From: Oscillospiraceae bacterium
GTDB lineage: Bacteria > Bacillota > Clostridia > Oscillospirales > Ruminococcaceae
Reading direction: 5' to 3'
Length of the DNA: 64,000 bases
NCBI GenBank assembly: GCA_017472965.1
Contig: JAFUNR010000046.1
Span: forward strand, 23,117-87,116
The stretch's first letter is position 1, and each line of letters opens with the position of its first letter. Below, one piece after another: positions 24,184-31,499 of the stretch. A program made the translations under genes and the position numbers. The notes beneath the pieces are model-generated. The model worked only from the letters and a program-made list of their open reading frames with translations. It searched no databases and was not told where the DNA came from.

Positions 24184-24207
24184 TCTAACGGACACTAGAT
24201 ATTGTGT
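24160..24207 (+). promoter_or_regulatory. Tandem NrdR boxes
   Basis: Box 2, ACACTAGATATTGTGT (24192-24207), matches the NrdR consensus acaCwAtATaTwGtgt closely. Box 1, TTGCTATATTTGGGGT (24160-24175), is weaker. Their starts are exactly 32 bases apart, about three helical turns, which is the known arrangement for co-operative NrdR binding. They lie between -35 and -10 and over +1, so NrdR would repress by blocking RNA polymerase. Confidence 0.85.
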
Positions 24208-24310: not shown

Positions 24311-26590
24311 ATGATCCGCAGTATTGTCAAACGCGACGGCCGTGTGGTGCTGTACGATGAAACCAAGATCGCCGGTGCGATCCTCAAGGCGCTGACCGCC
24401 GCCGGCAACGAGGATGCCCGCGCCGCCGCTGCCGTGGCCAACGCCGTGGGCGCCCGTCTGGATGCCCGCCCCGATACCACCGAGCCCCCCACCGTGGAGG
24501 AGATCCAGGATATGGTGGAAACCGAGCTGATGGCCGCCGGCCACAGCGAGGCTGCCAAAAAGTATATTCTGTACCGCGCCGCCCGTACCCGTGTGCGCGA
24601 GACCAATACCTCTCTGATGAAGACCTTCGCCGAGATCACCCACGAGGATGCCCGTGCCTCCGATCTCAAGCGCGACAACGCCAACGTGGACGGCAACACC
24701 GCCATGGGCACCATGCTGCAGTACGGCAGCACCGCTGCCAAGGCCTACAGCGAGGCATATCTGCTCAGCCCCGAGCAGGCCCGTGCCCACCGCGAGGGCG
24801 ATATTCACATCCACGATTTCGATTTCTATGCGCTGACCACCACCTGCTGCCAGATCGACCTGCTCAAGCTGTTCAAAAACGGCTTCTCCACCGGTCACGG
24901 CTTCCTGCGCGAGCCGCAGGAGATCGCCAGCTACGCGGCGCTGGCCTGCATTGCGGTGCAGTCCAACCAGAACGACCAGCACGGCGGCCAGAGCATCGTC
25001 AACTTCGATTACGGTCTGGCTCCCGGCGTGGCCAAGAGCTACGAAAAGCGCTGGGCCGAGAACATCACCAAGTATTTCGACGTGCTGGGCGTGGGTCACT
25101 ACACGCTGGAGCAGGTGAAGGCGATCATCAAAAAGATCAAGGCCGACACCGGCCGCAAGCCGCAGCTGGCCACGGATGACGGCTATCTGCGCGCCGAGTG
25201 CGCCGCGCTGATGGATATCCCCGAGGAAACCGTCCGCGCCGCTCAGAAATTCGCCATTGAAAAATCCGCCGAGGAGGTGGACCGCAACACCTACAAGGCC
25301 ATGGTGGCATTGGTGCACAACCTGAACACCATGCACAGCCGAGCCGGTGCGCAGACCCCCTTCTCCTCCATCAACTACGGCACCGACACCTCCCCCGAGG
25401 GCCGCATGGTCATCAAGAATGTGCTGCTGGCCACCGAGGCGGGTCTGGGCCACGGCGAGACCCCCATCTTCCCCATCCACATCTTCCGCGTCAAGGAAGG
25501 CATCAACTACAATGAGGGCGATCCCAACTACGATCTGTTCCGTCTGGCCTGCCGTGTCAGCGCCAAGCGCCTGTTCCCCAACTTCAGCTTTATCGACAGC
25601 CCCTATAACCTGCAGTATTACAAGCCCGGCCATCCCGAGACCGAGGTCAGCTACATGGGCTGCCGCACCCGCGTCATGGCCAATGCCTACGATCCCGACC
25701 GCGCCATCGCCAACGGCCGCGGCAACCTGAGCTTCACCTCCATCAACCTGCCCCGCATCGCCATCGAGAGCAAGGGCGATGAGAAGGTGTTCTATCAGAA
25801 GCTCTCCGATATGATGGAGCTGGTCACCGGCCAGCTGCTGGACCGTTTTGAGATCCAGGCCCGCAAGCATGTTTATAACTATCCGTTCCTGATGGGACAG
25901 GGCGTGTGGCTGGACAGCGAAAAGCTGGGCCCTGCGGACGAGGTGCGCGAGGTGCTCAAGCACGGCACCCTTTCCATCGGCTTCATCGGTCTGGCCGAGA
26001 CGCTTACCGCGCTGTACGGCCACCACCACGGCGAAAGCGACGAGATGCAGCAGAAGGGTCTGGAGATCGTGGGCTTCATGCGAGATTTTGTGGATGCCAA
26101 GAGCCGCAAGCACCACATGAACTTCACCCTGCTGGCCACCCCCGCCGAGGGCCTTTCCGGCCGCTTCATCCGCATGGATAAAAAGCGTTACGGCGAGCTG
26201 CCCGGCATCACGGACAAGGAGTACTACACCAACAGCTTCCATGTGCCGGTGTGGTACAATATCCCCGCCTACGAGAAGATCTGGAAGGAAGCCCCCTACC
26301 ACGCACTGACCAACGCCGGTCACATCACCTATGTGGAGCTGGACGGCGACACCGCCAACAATCTGGAGGCGTTTGAAAGCATTATCCGCTGTATGCACGA
26401 TGCCGGCATCGGCTACGGCAGTGTCAACCATCCGGTCGACCGCGACCCCGTCTGCGGCTACACCGGCGTCATCGGCGATGTGTGCCCGCGCTGCGGCCGC
26501 CGCGCCGGCGAGGGTGTCAGCGCCGAAAAGCTGCGCGCTTTGCGTAAGCTGTACCCCGATATGCCCTATCAGTACGGCGTGGAGGAATAA
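24311..26590 (+). CDS. nrdD: Anaerobic ribonucleoside-triphosphate reductase NrdD, large part without glycyl-radical segment
   Basis: 759 residues from the ATG at 24311 (ggaggag upstream). An ATP-cone (residues 1-90, IVKRDGRVVLYDETKIAGAILKAL) is followed by the ten-stranded barrel with INYGTDTSPEGRM, LGHGETPIFPIHIF and YMGCRTRV, the last holding an active-site cysteine. It reaches the zinc motif VCGYTG...VCPRCG, then stops after about 30 more residues. The expected C-terminal glycyl-radical segment (R-x-x-GYL...RVKH) is missing here. It is encoded separately at 28579. Alone, this chain should be inactive. Confidence 0.93.
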   Translation: MIRSIVKRDGRVVLYDETKIAGAILKALTAAGNEDARAAAAVANAVGARLDARPDTTEPPTVEEIQDMVETELMAAGHSEAAKKYILYRAARTRVRETNTSLMKTFAEITHEDARASDLKRDNANVDGNTAMGTMLQYGSTAAKAYSEAYLLSPEQARAHREGDIHIHDFDFYALTTTCCQIDLLKLFKNGFSTGHGFLREPQEIASYAALACIAVQSNQNDQHGGQSIVNFDYGLAPGVAKSYEKRWAENITKYFDVLGVGHYTLEQVKAIIKKIKADTGRKPQLATDDGYLRAECAALMDIPEETVRAAQKFAIEKSAEEVDRNTYKAMVALVHNLNTMHSRAGAQTPFSSINYGTDTSPEGRMVIKNVLLATEAGLGHGETPIFPIHIFRVKEGINYNEGDPNYDLFRLACRVSAKRLFPNFSFIDSPYNLQYYKPGHPETEVSYMGCRTRVMANAYDPDRAIANGRGNLSFTSINLPRIAIESKGDEKVFYQKLSDMMELVTGQLLDRFEIQARKHVYNYPFLMGQGVWLDSEKLGPADEVREVLKHGTLSIGFIGLAETLTALYGHHHGESDEMQQKGLEIVGFMRDFVDAKSRKHHMNFTLLATPAEGLSGRFIRMDKKRYGELPGITDKEYYTNSFHVPVWYNIPAYEKIWKEAPYHALTNAGHITYVELDGDTANNLEAFESIIRCMHDAGIGYGSVNHPVDRDPVCGYTGVIGDVCPRCGRRAGEGVSAEKLRALRKLYPDMPYQYGVEE

Positions 26591-26721
26591 GCCTGCCGCC
26601 AAACCAGCGGCGATCGGCTGTGTGACCGGCAGAAAAGGCAGACAGAATGGCAAAAAATCCGGCATTGTCCTTTGAAAAAGGCGGACCAAAAGCCTTTGCA
26701 GACAAAGAGAGGAGCCGTTTT

Positions 26722-28434
26722 ATGACGATCAGGCTGAACGACGGATATCGGATAGTTGTCGCTGCCGGCTGCAGTGCCTCCGGCGCGTATGCCGCTGCGG
26801 AGCTGGCCCGTTATCTGAAGCAGATCACGGGCGGTTCTTTCCCTGTTGTGAAGGACGATGTGCCCGGACAGGACTGTGAGATCCTCATCGGAAAGACCAG
26901 CCGGCCGGGCACACCCAGCGGTGCGGGATTGAAAAACGACGGCTATGTTCTGCGCACCGCAGGGAAAAAGCTGTTTATCTTCGGGGAAAATGACCGTGCC
27001 AATCTGTACGGTGTGTATTACCTGTTGGAAAAATATCTGGGCTGCGGTTTCTATGCCCACGATGTGGAGAGAGTTCCTGTCAACGAAGAGGCCTGTCTGC
27101 CGGAGATCGACGAAATGCGCATTTCGCCGTTGGAATACCGGGAGACCTACTGGTATGAGCCGTATCGCCATGAGGAGTTTGCCATCAAACGCGGCTTCAA
27201 CGGTTCCTGGCTCAAGCCTTACGGCAGTAAGGTGGGAGGCTGCGTCCGGGTCGACGCTCTGGCCCATACCATGTTCCAATACGTGCATCCGGATGAATAT
27301 TTCGACGAACACCCGGAGTATTTTTCCATGGTGGACGGCAAGCGTATCCGCATATCGACGCAGTTGTGTCTGACGAATCCGGATGTTCTGGAGATCACGA
27401 AGAGAAAGCTGCGTCAAAAGATCCGGGAAAATCCCGATATCAGGATTTTTGGTATCTCCCAGATGGACTGGCTGAATCCCTGCCAATGTCCCGCGTGCGC
27501 GAAGATCGATGCCGAGGAAGGTTCCCACATGGGCACCATGCTGCGGTTCCTGAATGCGCTTGCCGAAGATATTGAACGCGACTATCCGGATGTGGTCATT
27601 GAGACGCTGGCGTATCAGTACACCCGGCAGGTGCCGAAGATCACCCGTCCGCACCCCAACGTCCTCATATGCTTCTGTACCATAGAGAATTGCTTTACCC
27701 ACCCTCTGCGCCGGTGCACGAAGGTCAGCCCGAGCTTATGGCAGTATTTTATCCCCGGTACCTCGGTGAAGCAGGATCTGCAGGAATGGGGCAGGATCTG
27801 CAAGCGGATGTTTATTTGGGATTACACCACCAATTACAGCTTCTATCTTGCGCCAATGATCAATTTCCATGTGTTGCAGGATAACATCAACTTCTTTCTG
27901 GAGAACGGTGCGACAGCTCTTTTTGAACAGGGTAACGCCGAATCTGTCTCCGGTGAATTCGGTGAGTTGCGCGCCTATATTCTTTCGAGACTGATGTGGG
28001 AGCCGCATGGAGATGTGTCTGCATGGATGGATGAATTCCTCGCCGGTTATTACGGAGAGGCTGCCGCGAAGCCGATCCGTGCCTACATTGACTATCTGGC
28101 AGATTTCGTGGAAAGGTTCGATATTCATGCCGGCATTTACGACAGTCCGAAGAATGTGATACCAAAGGCGGTTTTTCCCGTTTTGGACCAGTTCTGGGAT
28201 GCTGCCGAGGCTGCCGCCGCGAACGGAGAACAACTTACGCGCATCCGGCGCAGCCGGCTGCAGCTCCGTTTTGTGAAGCTGCTTTGCAAACGACATACGG
28301 ATATGGATTATCAGGAAACGGCAGATCGTTTCCTTGACGATGTGAAGAAACACGGAATCACCCATCTCCGGGAGGGGCGTTCTTTTGAGGAAGGGGTAGC
28401 TCAGATCGGTATCGGTTGTCCGCCGGTAGGATGA
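26722..28434 (+). CDS. DUF4838 domain protein (alpha-glucuronidase-like)
   Basis: 570 residues from the ATG at 26722, chosen for the agagagg site; an upstream ATG at 26647 lacks one. The N-terminal part (AAELARYLKQITGGSFPVV, CEILIGKTSRPGTP, FIFGENDRANLYGVYYLLEKYLGCGFY) is the alpha-glucuronidase-type N domain. The rest is a DUF4838 barrel (FGISQMDWLNPCQCPACAK). There is no signal peptide. Base composition and codons are visibly less GC-biased than nrdD and nrdG. It sits between the two parts of the RNR locus and looks inserted. Confidence 0.82.
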   Translation: MTIRLNDGYRIVVAAGCSASGAYAAAELARYLKQITGGSFPVVKDDVPGQDCEILIGKTSRPGTPSGAGLKNDGYVLRTAGKKLFIFGENDRANLYGVYYLLEKYLGCGFYAHDVERVPVNEEACLPEIDEMRISPLEYRETYWYEPYRHEEFAIKRGFNGSWLKPYGSKVGGCVRVDALAHTMFQYVHPDEYFDEHPEYFSMVDGKRIRISTQLCLTNPDVLEITKRKLRQKIRENPDIRIFGISQMDWLNPCQCPACAKIDAEEGSHMGTMLRFLNALAEDIERDYPDVVIETLAYQYTRQVPKITRPHPNVLICFCTIENCFTHPLRRCTKVSPSLWQYFIPGTSVKQDLQEWGRICKRMFIWDYTTNYSFYLAPMINFHVLQDNINFFLENGATALFEQGNAESVSGEFGELRAYILSRLMWEPHGDVSAWMDEFLAGYYGEAAAKPIRAYIDYLADFVERFDIHAGIYDSPKNVIPKAVFPVLDQFWDAAEAAAANGEQLTRIRRSRLQLRFVKLLCKRHTDMDYQETADRFLDDVKKHGITHLREGRSFEEGVAQIGIGCPPVG

Positions 28435-28578
28435 TACCTCTGCTGCAAAGACATTCAGTAACGAAAAAATAGCTGCGCAGCAATGGGACGGATGGCTCCG
28501 CATTTTTGAGAGCCCGGCTTTTGCCGCCAGCTGTAAGAACAGATAACAGGATCACAGAAGATAAAAAGGAGAACAACT

Positions 28579-28749
28579 ATGAACGAGCAGAACAATTACA
28601 CCGTCCGCAACGACCATCTGGTGGGCGAAGGCGTGGGCTTTGAGCGCATCCGCCGCATTACCGGCTATCTCGTCGGCACGCTGGACCGTTTCAACGATGC
28701 CAAAAAAGCCGAGGAGCACGACCGCGTCAAGCACGGCCTGAGCGTATAA
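28579..28749 (+). CDS. Stand-alone glycyl-radical segment of anaerobic RNR (NrdD C-terminal piece)
   Basis: 56 residues with a strong aaaaaggag site. The core FERIRRITGYLVG...RFNDAKKAEEHDRVKHG aligns with the C terminus of NrdD enzymes; for example E. coli NrdD has KRTCGYLG...EISARVKH. Gly29 in RRITGYL is the predicted radical glycine. The gene ends 4 bases before nrdG. Because the large NrdD ORF lacks this segment, the small protein probably docks into it in trans and is activated by NrdG, by analogy with GrcA/YfiD in pyruvate formate-lyase. In-trans function is inference. Confidence 0.85.
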   Translation: MNEQNNYTVRNDHLVGEGVGFERIRRITGYLVGTLDRFNDAKKAEEHDRVKHGLSV

Positions 28750-28753
28750 CGCA

Positions 28754-29269
28754 ATGGTGCTCAGGACTGCGGGCTTTGTGCCCGAAAGCATCACCGACGG
28801 CCCCGGTATCCGCTTCGTGGTGTTCTGTCAGGGCTGTGTGCACCACTGTCCCGGCTGCCACAATGCGCAGACATGGCCCTTTGAGGGCGGTGAGCCGTGG
28901 GAGGTGCAGCAAATCTTTGAAAAGCTGCGCCGCGACCCGCTGGTACGGGGAGTCACCTTCTCCGGCGGCGAGCCGTTCTGTCAGGCGGCGGCCTTTGCCG
29001 AGCTGGCGCAGATCTTAAAACAGCACCGCTACGAGGTGGCCGCTTACTCCGGCTGGACCTTTGAGGAGCTGTGCGAAAAAGCAAAGACCGAGCCGGAGAC
29101 AGCAGCGCTGCTGGGGCTGCTGGATGTTCTGGTGGATGGCCGCTTCGAGAAGGAGCAGCTCAGTCTGGAGCTGAAATTCCGCGGCAGCCGCAACCAGCGC
29201 ATTCTGGATGTGCCCGCCAGCCTTGCCGCCGGCCGTGCCATCCCGAAAGAGGACGGCCGCTGGAAATGA
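28754..29269 (+). CDS. nrdG: Anaerobic RNR-activating radical SAM protein
   Basis: 171 residues. The radical SAM cluster motif CVHHCPGC (Cys28, Cys32, Cys35) and the SAM-binding GVTFSGGEPFCQ are present. It makes the glycyl radical on NrdD. It starts 4 bases after the small glycyl-segment gene, so translation of the two is probably coupled. Confidence 0.95.
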   Translation: MVLRTAGFVPESITDGPGIRFVVFCQGCVHHCPGCHNAQTWPFEGGEPWEVQQIFEKLRRDPLVRGVTFSGGEPFCQAAAFAELAQILKQHRYEVAAYSGWTFEELCEKAKTEPETAALLGLLDVLVDGRFEKEQLSLELKFRGSRNQRILDVPASLAAGRAIPKEDGRWK

Positions 29270-29394: not shown

Positions 29395-30456
29395 TTACAG
29401 CACGCTCATCCGGTGGCGGAAGCCGCCCTCGCGGCCAAGGTCGGCTTCGGCGCGTGCGCGGAGGAAGGCCAGCAGGGGAATGCCCTTGTCCACCGTATTG
29501 CGGTAGATGGTTTCCATGTCGTTATACTCCGGCTGGCTCATGTTCACGCCGGTCAGGTCGGGAATGCTGCACAGCGTTTCCATGTAATGGTCACCGCGGC
29601 CGCAGAAATGTACTACGCCGCCTTTGAAATGCTTCAGCAGCTCGGCATCGTAGGGGGCGGCGAACTCCTTGTACAGCTCGGGAGAAAGGTTCATGGCGCT
29701 GTCATCCCGCAGCACGATGCCGCCCCGGTGACGCAGGCTGGCCCAGTGGGTGGTCATCTCCGCGTGGATCGGGAACAGGGCGAACCACTTTTCCAGAAAA
29801 GCGGTGTAGGTGTCGGTGACAAGCCGCAGCAGCCCGTGCACCAGCTCCGGCTCATCATACATGGCAAGGAACATCTCACCGCCCCACATCAGCTCGCACA
29901 GATCCAGCGGGCCCTGCGTGTCGGGGTGGTAGACCTCCACATACTTCTGAATGTTGGGGTAACGGGCGAACACCTCGGCGCAAAGCTCGCCGAAATCGAA
30001 TACCCGCTGTCCCAGTCCGCCCAGCAGGTCGGGCATGCCCTTTTCCAGCAGGCCGCGCATCACCTCGGTATCGTTGAAAGCACGGGTGGTGGGCAGGGTG
30101 TTGGTGTGGCGGGGCATCATGAAAAGCTCTGCCCCGAACAGCGAGGTCATGATGCCGGTGCCGTAGTTGGCGCGGATGCAGGGGCTGAGCGCCTCGGTGG
30201 AAAGCTGCGCCGCCACATCCTGCAGCCCGAACTGCAGCATCAGCTCCAGATCGTCAATGGCATCGTTGATATGTACGGCGGGCAGCGAAATGCCGGGGGC
30301 GCTCACTGCTTTGCGCTTTGCGGTGAAAAGATCTCCTTCAAAGCGGCCGTACAGAAAATCCTTCCACTGGGCGGAAAAATCCTCCTCCACGGCGGGATCG
30401 ATACGGCGTTCAATGTCCTCCAGCAGGGCAATGGTCTCTTTTTTCAGCTGCAGCAT
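29395..30456 (-). CDS. Uroporphyrinogen decarboxylase family protein (methyltransferase-type branch)
   Basis: 353 residues. The ATG at 30456 is chosen because aaaggag lies 8 bases upstream; a GTG three codons earlier would overlap that site. The UroD-type barrel is indicated by HPDTQGPLDLCELMWGG, LVTDTYTAFLEKWFALFP, GIVLRDDSAMNLSPELYKEF and GGVVHFCGRGDHYME. This branch includes MtaA/CmuA-like corrinoid methyltransferases as well as UroD. With no haem genes nearby, the methyltransferase-like role is more likely. It is transcribed away from an AraC regulator. Confidence 0.78.
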   Translation of the reverse strand: MLQLKKETIALLEDIERRIDPAVEEDFSAQWKDFLYGRFEGDLFTAKRKAVSAPGISLPAVHINDAIDDLELMLQFGLQDVAAQLSTEALSPCIRANYGTGIMTSLFGAELFMMPRHTNTLPTTRAFNDTEVMRGLLEKGMPDLLGGLGQRVFDFGELCAEVFARYPNIQKYVEVYHPDTQGPLDLCELMWGGEMFLAMYDEPELVHGLLRLVTDTYTAFLEKWFALFPIHAEMTTHWASLRHRGGIVLRDDSAMNLSPELYKEFAAPYDAELLKHFKGGVVHFCGRGDHYMETLCSIPDLTGVNMSQPEYNDMETIYRNTVDKGIPLLAFLRARAEADLGREGGFRHRMSVL

Positions 30457-30650
30457 GGTCGGCACTCCTTTCGGCTCATAACAGGCCGGATTTTTTGTTA
30501 TGCGGGCGGGTACGCAGATGCACCCCGCTTTTCACTGTCATTGTACCCTTTTTCACAGTGAAATTCCAGTGGGTGTTTTGCTGCAAAGCTTAAGAATATT
30601 GACTTTTTTCGCCCCGGTCACTACAATGAAAAGAGAAAGGAGGGAGTGGC

Positions 30651-31499
30651 ATGAAAATGCAGCCCGTGTGGGAGACGGAGGAAATTTACTGTGCGCATGC
30701 CGTCACGGACGGCAGCACCATGGCTGCCATGCACATCCATGAGGTGTATGAGATTTTCATGGCCTGCAGCGGCGGCATCCGCTATCTGGTCAATGACCGC
30801 ATCTATACCCTTGCGCCGGGCGATGTGCTGCTTTTTACCGATACCGATCTGCACAAGCCCAGTGTACCCGCGGGTACGGTGTACGACCGGTATGTCATCA
30901 CCTTTCCGCCGCAGCTGCTGCGCCGGTGCGGCGGCGAAGAGCTGCTTTGCTGCTTTGAAGCGGGCCGGAACGGCGGCAGCCACCGGCTTTCGCTGAGCAC
31001 AGAGGAACAGGCGGAGTTTTTGGCGCTGGTGCAGGCGCTGGAAGCACAGGCACAGCAGCCGGTCTGTCCGCAGCTGGGACAGTGGGTGGAGCTTTGCCGT
31101 CTGCTGTTGTTTTTGGGACGCATCGCCAGCCGCGCCCCGCGGGAATTGCCCGCTCTGCGGCAGAGCCTGCATCCGCAGATCCGCACCGTTCTGGAATATA
31201 TCGATGAAAATTTCCGGCAGAATATCCCGCTGGATACCCTCAGCGCCCTGTGCTTTCTGAATAAACACTACCTGTGCCGTCTGTTCCGGCGCGAGACCGG
31301 TTTCTGTATCCACGATTACATCACCTACCGCCGTCTGGCCCATGCCATCCGGCTGCTGCGCACCGGTGAAAGTGTGGCCGGCGCGGCGCGGCTTTCCGGT
31401 TTCGGCAGCGATACCTTTTTTATCACCACCTTCAAAAAGATCCTCGGCACCACCCCCAGCCGTTACGCCCGCCAGCAGCGGGAGCAGCGGCTGCCATAA
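30651..31499 (+). CDS. AraC family transcriptional regulator
   Basis: 282 residues. The N-terminal cupin sensor domain (HIHEVYEIFMACSGGIRYLVNDRIYTL, GDVLLFTDTDLHKP) is followed by two C-terminal helix-turn-helix motifs (residues about 185-280: LDTLSALCFLNKHYLCRLFRRETG, ARLSGFGSDTFFITTFKKILGTTPSRY). The ribosome site is aaaggagg. It is divergent from the UroD-family gene and may control it; the shared region 30457-30650 shows no clear dyad. Confidence 0.92.
   Translation: MKMQPVWETEEIYCAHAVTDGSTMAAMHIHEVYEIFMACSGGIRYLVNDRIYTLAPGDVLLFTDTDLHKPSVPAGTVYDRYVITFPPQLLRRCGGEELLCCFEAGRNGGSHRLSLSTEEQAEFLALVQALEAQAQQPVCPQLGQWVELCRLLLFLGRIASRAPRELPALRQSLHPQIRTVLEYIDENFRQNIPLDTLSALCFLNKHYLCRLFRRETGFCIHDYITYRRLAHAIRLLRTGESVAGAARLSGFGSDTFFITTFKKILGTTPSRYARQQREQRLP

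Follow-up and report, generated by a model that had tools for sequence, protein, structure and literature searches.

A separately encoded glycyl-radical domain in an Oscillospiraceae locus points to a two-chain class III ribonucleotide reductase

Introduction

Ribonucleotide reduction is essential, and the class III (anaerobic) ribonucleotide reductases (RNRs) are lost to oxygen, which cleaves their chain at the glycyl radical. In a stretch of 64,000 nucleotides from an Oscillospiraceae bacterium (contig JAFUNR010000046.1, positions 23,117 to 87,116; the whole stretch is called the window below), the gene nrdD for the catalytic chain of such an enzyme stops before its glycyl-radical domain (GRD), and a small open reading frame (ORF) further downstream encodes this domain by itself, ahead of the activase gene nrdG. 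This raises the question of whether nrdD is simply broken or whether the locus encodes an enzyme made of two chains with the radical supplied in trans. We infer, with a probability of about 0.9, that the locus specifies a functional class III RNR of two chains. This reading, already put forward in an initial annotation of the window, is the one best supported by the data: truncated NrdD and a free GRD are found together in 19 of 61 surveyed genomes, they are the sole detectable RNR in 10 of these, the GRD has a Shine-Dalgarno sequence of its own in 83 of 84 loci, and the two halves are not linked by reading frame. Genomes (G) and loci (L) are numbered as in our surveys.

Sequence analysis of the two chains

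The catalytic chain of 759 residues (24311..26590, plus strand) matches the Pfam family NRDD (PF13597) over positions 1–530 of the 562 in the profile, and the 56-residue protein (28579..28749, plus strand) matches it over positions 533–562 with 31.5 bits, the cut-off being 26.2. With the NCBIfam model PRK07111 the corresponding ranges are 1–712 and 711–744 of 746. The expectation that the two ORFs together span the family once and without overlap holds for Pfam NRDD, but the halves share two profile positions in PRK07111. The large chain also contains an ATP-cone (Pfam match PF03477). It ends 31 residues after its last zinc cysteine, with other sequence replacing the glycyl-radical loop, in agreement with the claim that NrdD stops past its zinc motif. 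This loop is absent from the large chain alone, and it is only the gene pair that jointly comprises what makes up an NrdD. The NrdG expected of a class III system is encoded 4 nt downstream of the GRD gene and scores above the cut-off of TIGR02491 (142 bits vs. 126).

Residues C451, C179 and N472 of the large chain align with C416, C171 and N435 of P. copri NrdD (8p23), which are described as the radical cysteine, the second cysteine and the asparagine of formate-type enzymes, respectively (PMC11226230). All three are invariant across 44 split NrdDs, as are the zinc cysteines C715, C725 and C728. The zinc site shows three cysteines in the window vs. four in the aligned 8p23 chain, and the listed fused relatives read like the window at this site. 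A profile built from free GRDs aligns with the C-terminal residues 706–738 of the P. copri protein (E 2.7e-12), and Gly29 of the small protein (RRITG29YLVG) falls on the glycine of RITGYLVG in that protein. Together with the NRDD and PRK07111 matches, this confirms the small ORF as a separate carrier of the radical glycine, as initially annotated. Its best matches are the NrdD models PRK07111 and PRK14704, and no model of pyruvate formate-lyase (PFL) matched. Within a core of 33 residues the mean identity is 0.85 among the GRDs of split enzymes, 0.85 among those of fused enzymes, and 0.84 between the two groups.

Occurrence in other genomes

A survey with PF13597 covered 61 genomes, namely that of the window, one other of its genus, and others of its family and order. 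The split, which the initial annotation had proposed to look for among relatives, recurs there: truncated NrdD was found in 20 of the 61 genomes, the window's included, and 19 of the 20 also hold a free GRD, which lies at the same locus in 16 genomes and on a different contig in three (G016, G031 and G036). Not among the 19 are G017, in which a truncated NrdD but no GRD was found, and G001, whose NrdD contains a run of N. A collection of named genomes was then ranked by likeness to the free-GRD alignment and the best 80 of at least 592 loci were kept, a choice by which the share of free GRDs is no frequency; 76 of these loci carry a free GRD, three a fused NrdD, and one (L104) a fused NrdD cut by the contig start, not a short free GRD. 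The truncated NrdD itself is visible in 64 of the 80 loci. According to record titles, Clostridia, Bacilli, Desulfovibrio, Succinivibrionaceae and a Fibrobacter bin are among the sources, most of which are metagenome-assembled genomes, and the split extends well beyond Oscillospiraceae. Named as strains among these sources are Succinivibrio dextrinosolvens DSM 3072, Massiliimalia timonensis, MH27-2 and 1XD42-1.

Gene arrangement was counted over 89 split loci, a number that leaves out eight (the copies L001, L025, L013 and L282, the cut locus L086, the viral L171 and L190, and the phage locus L233) and takes one place twice (L046 = L111). A GRD is present by the start-codon rule in 84 of them, and in 83 of these 84 a Shine-Dalgarno sequence of 4 or more nt precedes the best-placed ATG. 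Relative to the NrdD stop, the three possible frames of the GRD occur 31/38/17 times in 86 split loci (L001, L025, L013, L282, L086, L233 and L046 being left out), with no clear in-frame excess, and the stop is TAA in 57 of the 86. An order-level survey of 396 genomes listed 150 match rows, free GRDs not being among those listed. At the class level 51 of 146 genomes gave a match; frames of less than 130 residues are found only in G000, G048 and G059, with the extended type described below beside fused NrdD in G064, G491 and G503, and the remaining matches lie in long frames, one of 265 residues (G461). As regards copy number, two tandem free GRD genes follow a single truncated nrdD at L116:2920-3556, and S. 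dextrinosolvens DSM 3072 (G636) holds a second free GRD at 10514-10618 of contig 32, a contig other than that of its nrdD locus.

Other ribonucleotide reductases

Class I and class II RNRs were sought with PF02867, a search whose control matched in 11 of 14 genomes, and none was found in 12 of the 19 split genomes. No other RNR of any kind was found in 10 of the 19 (G005, G013, G016, G023, G030, G031, G033, G036, G039 and G052), of which G023 is 86% complete and the other nine 91–100%. Ten named genomes were checked as well; PF02867 is present in two (G639 and G642) and a second full-length NrdD in two others (G638 and G643), and the split NrdD is the only one in six, including S. dextrinosolvens DSM 3072 and M. 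timonensis. That the split enzyme is the only RNR found in some genomes is our strongest argument for the two chains working as a pair.

Several observations weigh against this conclusion. PF02867 is present in the remaining seven of the 19 split genomes, and G048, one of the 12 that lack it, has another, diverged full-length NrdD. G017 (55% complete) holds a truncated NrdD with no free GRD found in its assembly. G001, the other surveyed genome of the genus (88% complete), has neither a split NrdD nor a free GRD as assembled; its NrdD is of the E. coli type only, with a run of N over its end. Five of the 89 split loci are without a GRD by the start-codon rule, of which three have one on another contig and two (L116 and L127) contain one not recognized by the rule. 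Finally, the genome of the window, also one of the 12 without PF02867, is 85% complete (63 contigs) and contains a second, interrupted nrdD, so we make no claim of a sole RNR for it. This second gene (L002:763-2939, on contig 43) is of the E. coli type and is followed by its own nrdG; it runs for 681 codons to an in-frame TAG ahead of the zinc and GRD part, which stays open behind the TAG. Uninterrupted copies of this type are found in relatives (L063 and L066), and the TAG is either a real mutation or an assembly error. The initial annotation would have given way to a second, full-length nrdD alongside a decayed window locus; what is found is the reverse, a second nrdD interrupted in the assembly and a locus without decay in the window.

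Alternative explanations

Could the split be an artefact, or the two ORFs a single protein after all? The window comes from a single draft genome of limited completeness whose other nrdD carries an in-frame TAG, and the locus is missing from the assembly of the other genome of the genus, all of which would suit a sequencing or assembly error or a decaying pseudogene. Yet the same break is seen in 20 of 61 genomes and in 64 of 80 named loci, named strains included, the catalytic residues are invariant, an entire gene lies between the halves in the window, and a tail motif is common to 85 of 90 split tails vs. two of 47 fused linkers (a pattern chosen post hoc), so that an error of this kind can practically be dismissed. 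Reunion of the halves by stop-codon readthrough, frameshifting or splicing might be read from the 18 of 86 split loci in which the NrdD frame continues past its stop into the GRD without meeting a second one, and from the named genome G644, for which the profile search reported a single match spanning the two parts and a TAG between them. The lack of a clear in-frame excess, the predominance of TAA, the Shine-Dalgarno sequences ahead of the GRD, the 1,988 nt between the halves in the window and their location on different contigs in three genomes make such recoding extremely unlikely.

The two remaining explanations concern the function of the parts. The 56-residue protein might serve only as a spare part for another glycyl-radical enzyme, a second NrdD or PFL, with the truncated NrdD inactive or otherwise employed; free GRDs do occur beside full-length NrdD. 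Against this, the GRD resembles NrdD models and no PFL model, and the 10 surveyed genomes with no other NrdD and no class I or II RNR found would be left with no known route of de novo deoxyribonucleotide (dNTP) synthesis, and we regard it as very unlikely. It is also conceivable that the truncated NrdD needs no glycyl radical to generate its thiyl radical, as class I and II RNRs manage without one. Nothing direct speaks for this, the window locus retains both nrdG and the GRD, and GRD cores are conserved to the same degree in split and fused enzymes, which renders the idea exceedingly improbable. A two-chain NrdD with its glycyl radical in trans remains our explanation of the locus.

Free glycyl-radical domains of two kinds

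The free GRD of the window is of a compact kind of about 48–66 residues. In this kind a motif G[EKQ..][GDN][VI..] stands directly before xFERIR (GEGVGFERIR ahead of Gly29 in the window); it occurs in 85 of 86 GRDs from split loci, in 69 of the 71 from viruses and in 16 of 18 further short GRDs, and in none of 49 fused NrdDs or 18 extended GRDs. The similar motif mentioned above for the split tails lies right behind the NrdD zinc site; both patterns, on the GRD side and in the NrdD tail, were defined after inspecting the sequences. We read this linker motif, common to both halves and mostly missing in fused enzymes, as a putative duplicated linker or docking pair.

The extended kind carries an additional N-terminal β-α-β-β domain of approximately 55 residues, for which no Pfam or NCBIfam match above cut-off was obtained in the few sequences tested. 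In a predicted model the confidence (pLDDT) is 73 overall, 81–88 for the N-terminal domain and about 52 for the GRD part. Extended GRDs stand beside full-length NrdD in G011, G015, G020, G064 and G491, and one with a divergent extension in G043; coexistence of a free GRD with full-length NrdD is seen, for example, in G011, G015, G020, G043 and G503. The operon of G503 consists of full-length nrdD, 32 nt, an extended GRD gene, 3 nt, nrdG and then an nrdR-like gene (by eye); this extended GRD (L147:1555-1836, minus strand) is the cleanest candidate for an RNR spare part. G020 has two, one of which (L053) adjoins endolysin- and holin-like genes (by eye), and the compact GRD of G011 is nearly identical to the viral L161, which indicates that some GRDs beside full-length NrdD are prophage genes. 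In G031, G016 and G036 the NrdD ends shortly before or inside the old GRD (at GFERIKRIR in G031), and an extended or similar GRD is encoded elsewhere. By analogy, the free GRDs beside full-length NrdD are like the spare part GrcA/YfiD.

Free glycyl-radical domains in viruses and phages

Virus contigs scanned with the GRD alignment yielded 409 relatives, and the best 80 by likeness were kept (L153-L232), so that here too the share of free GRDs is no frequency. They comprise 76 free GRDs, one fused NrdD, one piece of a fused NrdD (L216) and two sequences without the GRD motif (L162 and L173). Fifty of the 80 loci were searched for NrdD over the whole record, L162, L173 and shorter contigs being left out, and the records may be fragments. 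Within these limits, no NrdD catalytic domain above cut-off was found in 44 of the 50 records with a free GRD, a full-length NrdD was found in none, and six hold a truncated NrdD (G573, G581, G582, G594, G597 and G603), of which G581 resembles host DNA located at the end of its contig. The viral nature of the contigs is indicated by genes near the GRD, namely a terminase (L155), integrases (L172 and L177), holins (L158 and L180, weakly L153) and endolysins (L155, L160, L177 and L213). Among 10 downstream neighbours of viral GRDs there are two holins, one weak endonuclease match and seven genes with nothing of known function; 10 upstream neighbours comprise an endolysin, a tail fibre, an exonuclease, a weak holin and six with nothing of known function. 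A Shine-Dalgarno sequence of 4 or more nt precedes 64 of 77 viral GRDs, a number in which L216 remains, as it does in the viral rows of the motif and identity counts.

A viral GRD used as query against 50,697 phage records found 14. In Eggerthella phage EL753P1 (L233:2533-6078) the NrdD is truncated behind the zinc site and has an intein-like insertion (by eye), and the GRD is unannotated, its frame being disrupted in the record. GRD-like matches were also seen on three unannotated extrachromosomal records of 90–110 kb, labelled as Subdoligranulum variabile plasmids (OY725842.1, OY725840.1 and OY725838.1), which are possibly phage-plasmids.

Origin of the split

The order of events was approached in one genus with 36 genomes, of which 14 have only truncated NrdD, 14 only full-length NrdD, five are mixed or fragmented (G279, G626, G627, G632 and G633) and three have no match, NrdD types being pooled. 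A free GRD is present in 14 of 14 truncated-only vs. four of 14 full-length-only genomes (Fisher p 1.5e-4, uncorrected for relatedness), and no truncated NrdD without a free GRD was seen in the 36. Since every truncated-only genome has a free GRD, as against four of the 14 full-length-only ones, the data fit an order in which the free spare came first and the built-in domain was lost second. Probably, the built-in GRD became dispensable through the presence of a free one, a spare-part protein that phages carry as well, and the split arose in this way.

A tree of the catalytic part with 138 rows requires 16 changes of state, at least 10 of them forced by well-supported branches, with the caveat of long branches that meet. 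A set of 56 rows picked from it also gives 16 changes, five of them forced, and rejects a single clade of split enzymes (p-AU 0.00012); in this set the split label is hardly more clustered than when shuffled (65 of 500 shuffles as low). Given at least 5 to 10 changes on well-supported branches and the p-AU value, we reject a single origin of the split on the catalytic part. The recurrent change of state reflects either repeated loss or exchange of a 3' module, that is, a cassette of tail and GRD. The NrdG motif used in this context picked up NrdG in 12 loci only, 11 split and one fused.

Taking bacteria and phages together, we lean with modest confidence towards a broader view, in which the radical subunit of class III RNR is mobile and exchangeable. 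Free NrdD-type GRDs would be spare parts, supplied by bacteria and phages, for the reductase of the host; in many anaerobes the spare would have taken over and the built-in domain been lost, leaving a two-subunit enzyme, while phages would carry only the subunit of about 50 residues, in several cases beside lysis genes, to sustain the dNTP supply of the host during infection.

Gene organization of the window locus

All genes of the window locus are on the plus strand, in the order nrdD, DUF4838 gene, free GRD gene, nrdG. The palindrome ACACTAGATATTGTGT (24192..24207, no strand assigned) lies approximately 100 nt upstream of nrdD and is an exact match to ACACNANATATNGTGT, which we take to be the NrdR consensus; at up to one mismatch a mean of 0.02 matches to ACACNANATATNGTGT is expected. 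nrdD starts with ATG preceded by GGAGGAG. The DUF4838 gene between the two halves, on which the initial annotation was silent, probably starts at 26722 (26722..28434) behind AGAGGAG (by eye), within a longer ORF from 26647. It lies in the gap of 1,988 nt between the halves; the gap in other split loci is -14 to 411 nt (median 37.5, n = 84), none being as wide as in the window. The strong ribosome site ascribed to the small ORF was found as AAGGAG, 7 nt ahead of its ATG, and the spacing of 4 bases to nrdG, which begins at 28754, was likewise as described. nrdG (28754..29269) encodes a radical-SAM activase of 171 residues, with no Shine-Dalgarno sequence of its own seen by eye. Downstream of it, a gene for a weakly matching URO-D/MtaA-like methyltransferase lies beside one for an AraC-type regulator (29395-30465, minus strand, and 30651-31499, plus strand).

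Discussion

The preceding comparisons allow a mechanism to be proposed. The large chain would fold as an ATP-cone and a catalytic barrel with the radical-cysteine loop and a zinc knuckle, and the 56-residue chain, consisting of the glycyl-radical loop and a C-terminal tail, would bind by docking into the barrel like the loop around Gly711 in P. copri NrdD. NrdG would set the radical in trans on Gly29, which would pass it to Cys451, and catalysis would then run as in a one-piece NrdD. By analogy with GrcA/YfiD, and given the free GRDs beside full-length NrdD, it is plausible that the radical subunit could be exchanged after oxygen damage. The closest precedent is that GrcA supports formate production in vivo by a PflB mutated at its own glycine (PMC12338860). 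In glycyl-radical enzymes the site of cleavage by oxygen is the glycine (PMC8683613, PMC12288474). With this residue on a peptide of its own, the damage would be limited to that peptide, which is all that the two-chain enzyme would lose. In practical terms, the radical-bearing peptide could be made, labelled or swapped separately, and the free GRDs point to a phage gene family easily missed owing to its shortness.

A two-chain NrdD of this kind, or an NrdD spare part, was not found described in the open-access literature searched, most subscription journals lying outside it, in line with the initial annotation, which knew of no NrdD acting in trans; none appears in the excerpts of PMC9531940, PMC9669993, PMC2795772, PMC3019208, PMC4390871, PMC3653736, PMC3322345, PMC8683613, PMC12386605 and PMC11528403. 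According to PMC8683613 only two PFL spare parts have been validated and others may exist for other glycyl-radical enzymes, a question for which the present loci offer natural material.

Compared with known systems, the window enzyme shares with one-piece NrdD (phage T4, 1h78; P. copri, 8p23) the ATP-cone of the P. copri type, the catalytic family, the radical cysteine, the zinc motif, the GRD sequence and the NrdG partner; it differs in having the glycyl-radical loop and tail encoded by a gene of their own, as a separate polypeptide, and in the new tail that closes the catalytic chain. GrcA/YfiD and T4 Y06I, spare parts that act in trans for PFL (PMC8683613), are likewise small free proteins with a glycyl-radical domain, with a phage example too. 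The GRD of the window, however, is of the NrdD and not of the PFL type, and no full-length parent stands beside it, NrdD being truncated and the second nrdD interrupted; with a permanently truncated parent, the enzyme would depend on the piece as a subunit instead of drawing on it for repair. The split class II enzyme NrdJa/NrdJb of Pseudomonas (PMC9669993) is also an RNR in two chains. Unlike the window enzyme it is B12-dependent, is split at another site and has no glycyl radical. Interrupted nrdD and nrdA genes of phages have been ascribed to introns, inteins, homing endonucleases or unknown causes, nrdD being the most common split gene with six cases (PMC3653736). Those are cases of single phages, whereas the cut described here recurs at the border between zinc site and GRD, and the detached part has its own start and ribosome site.

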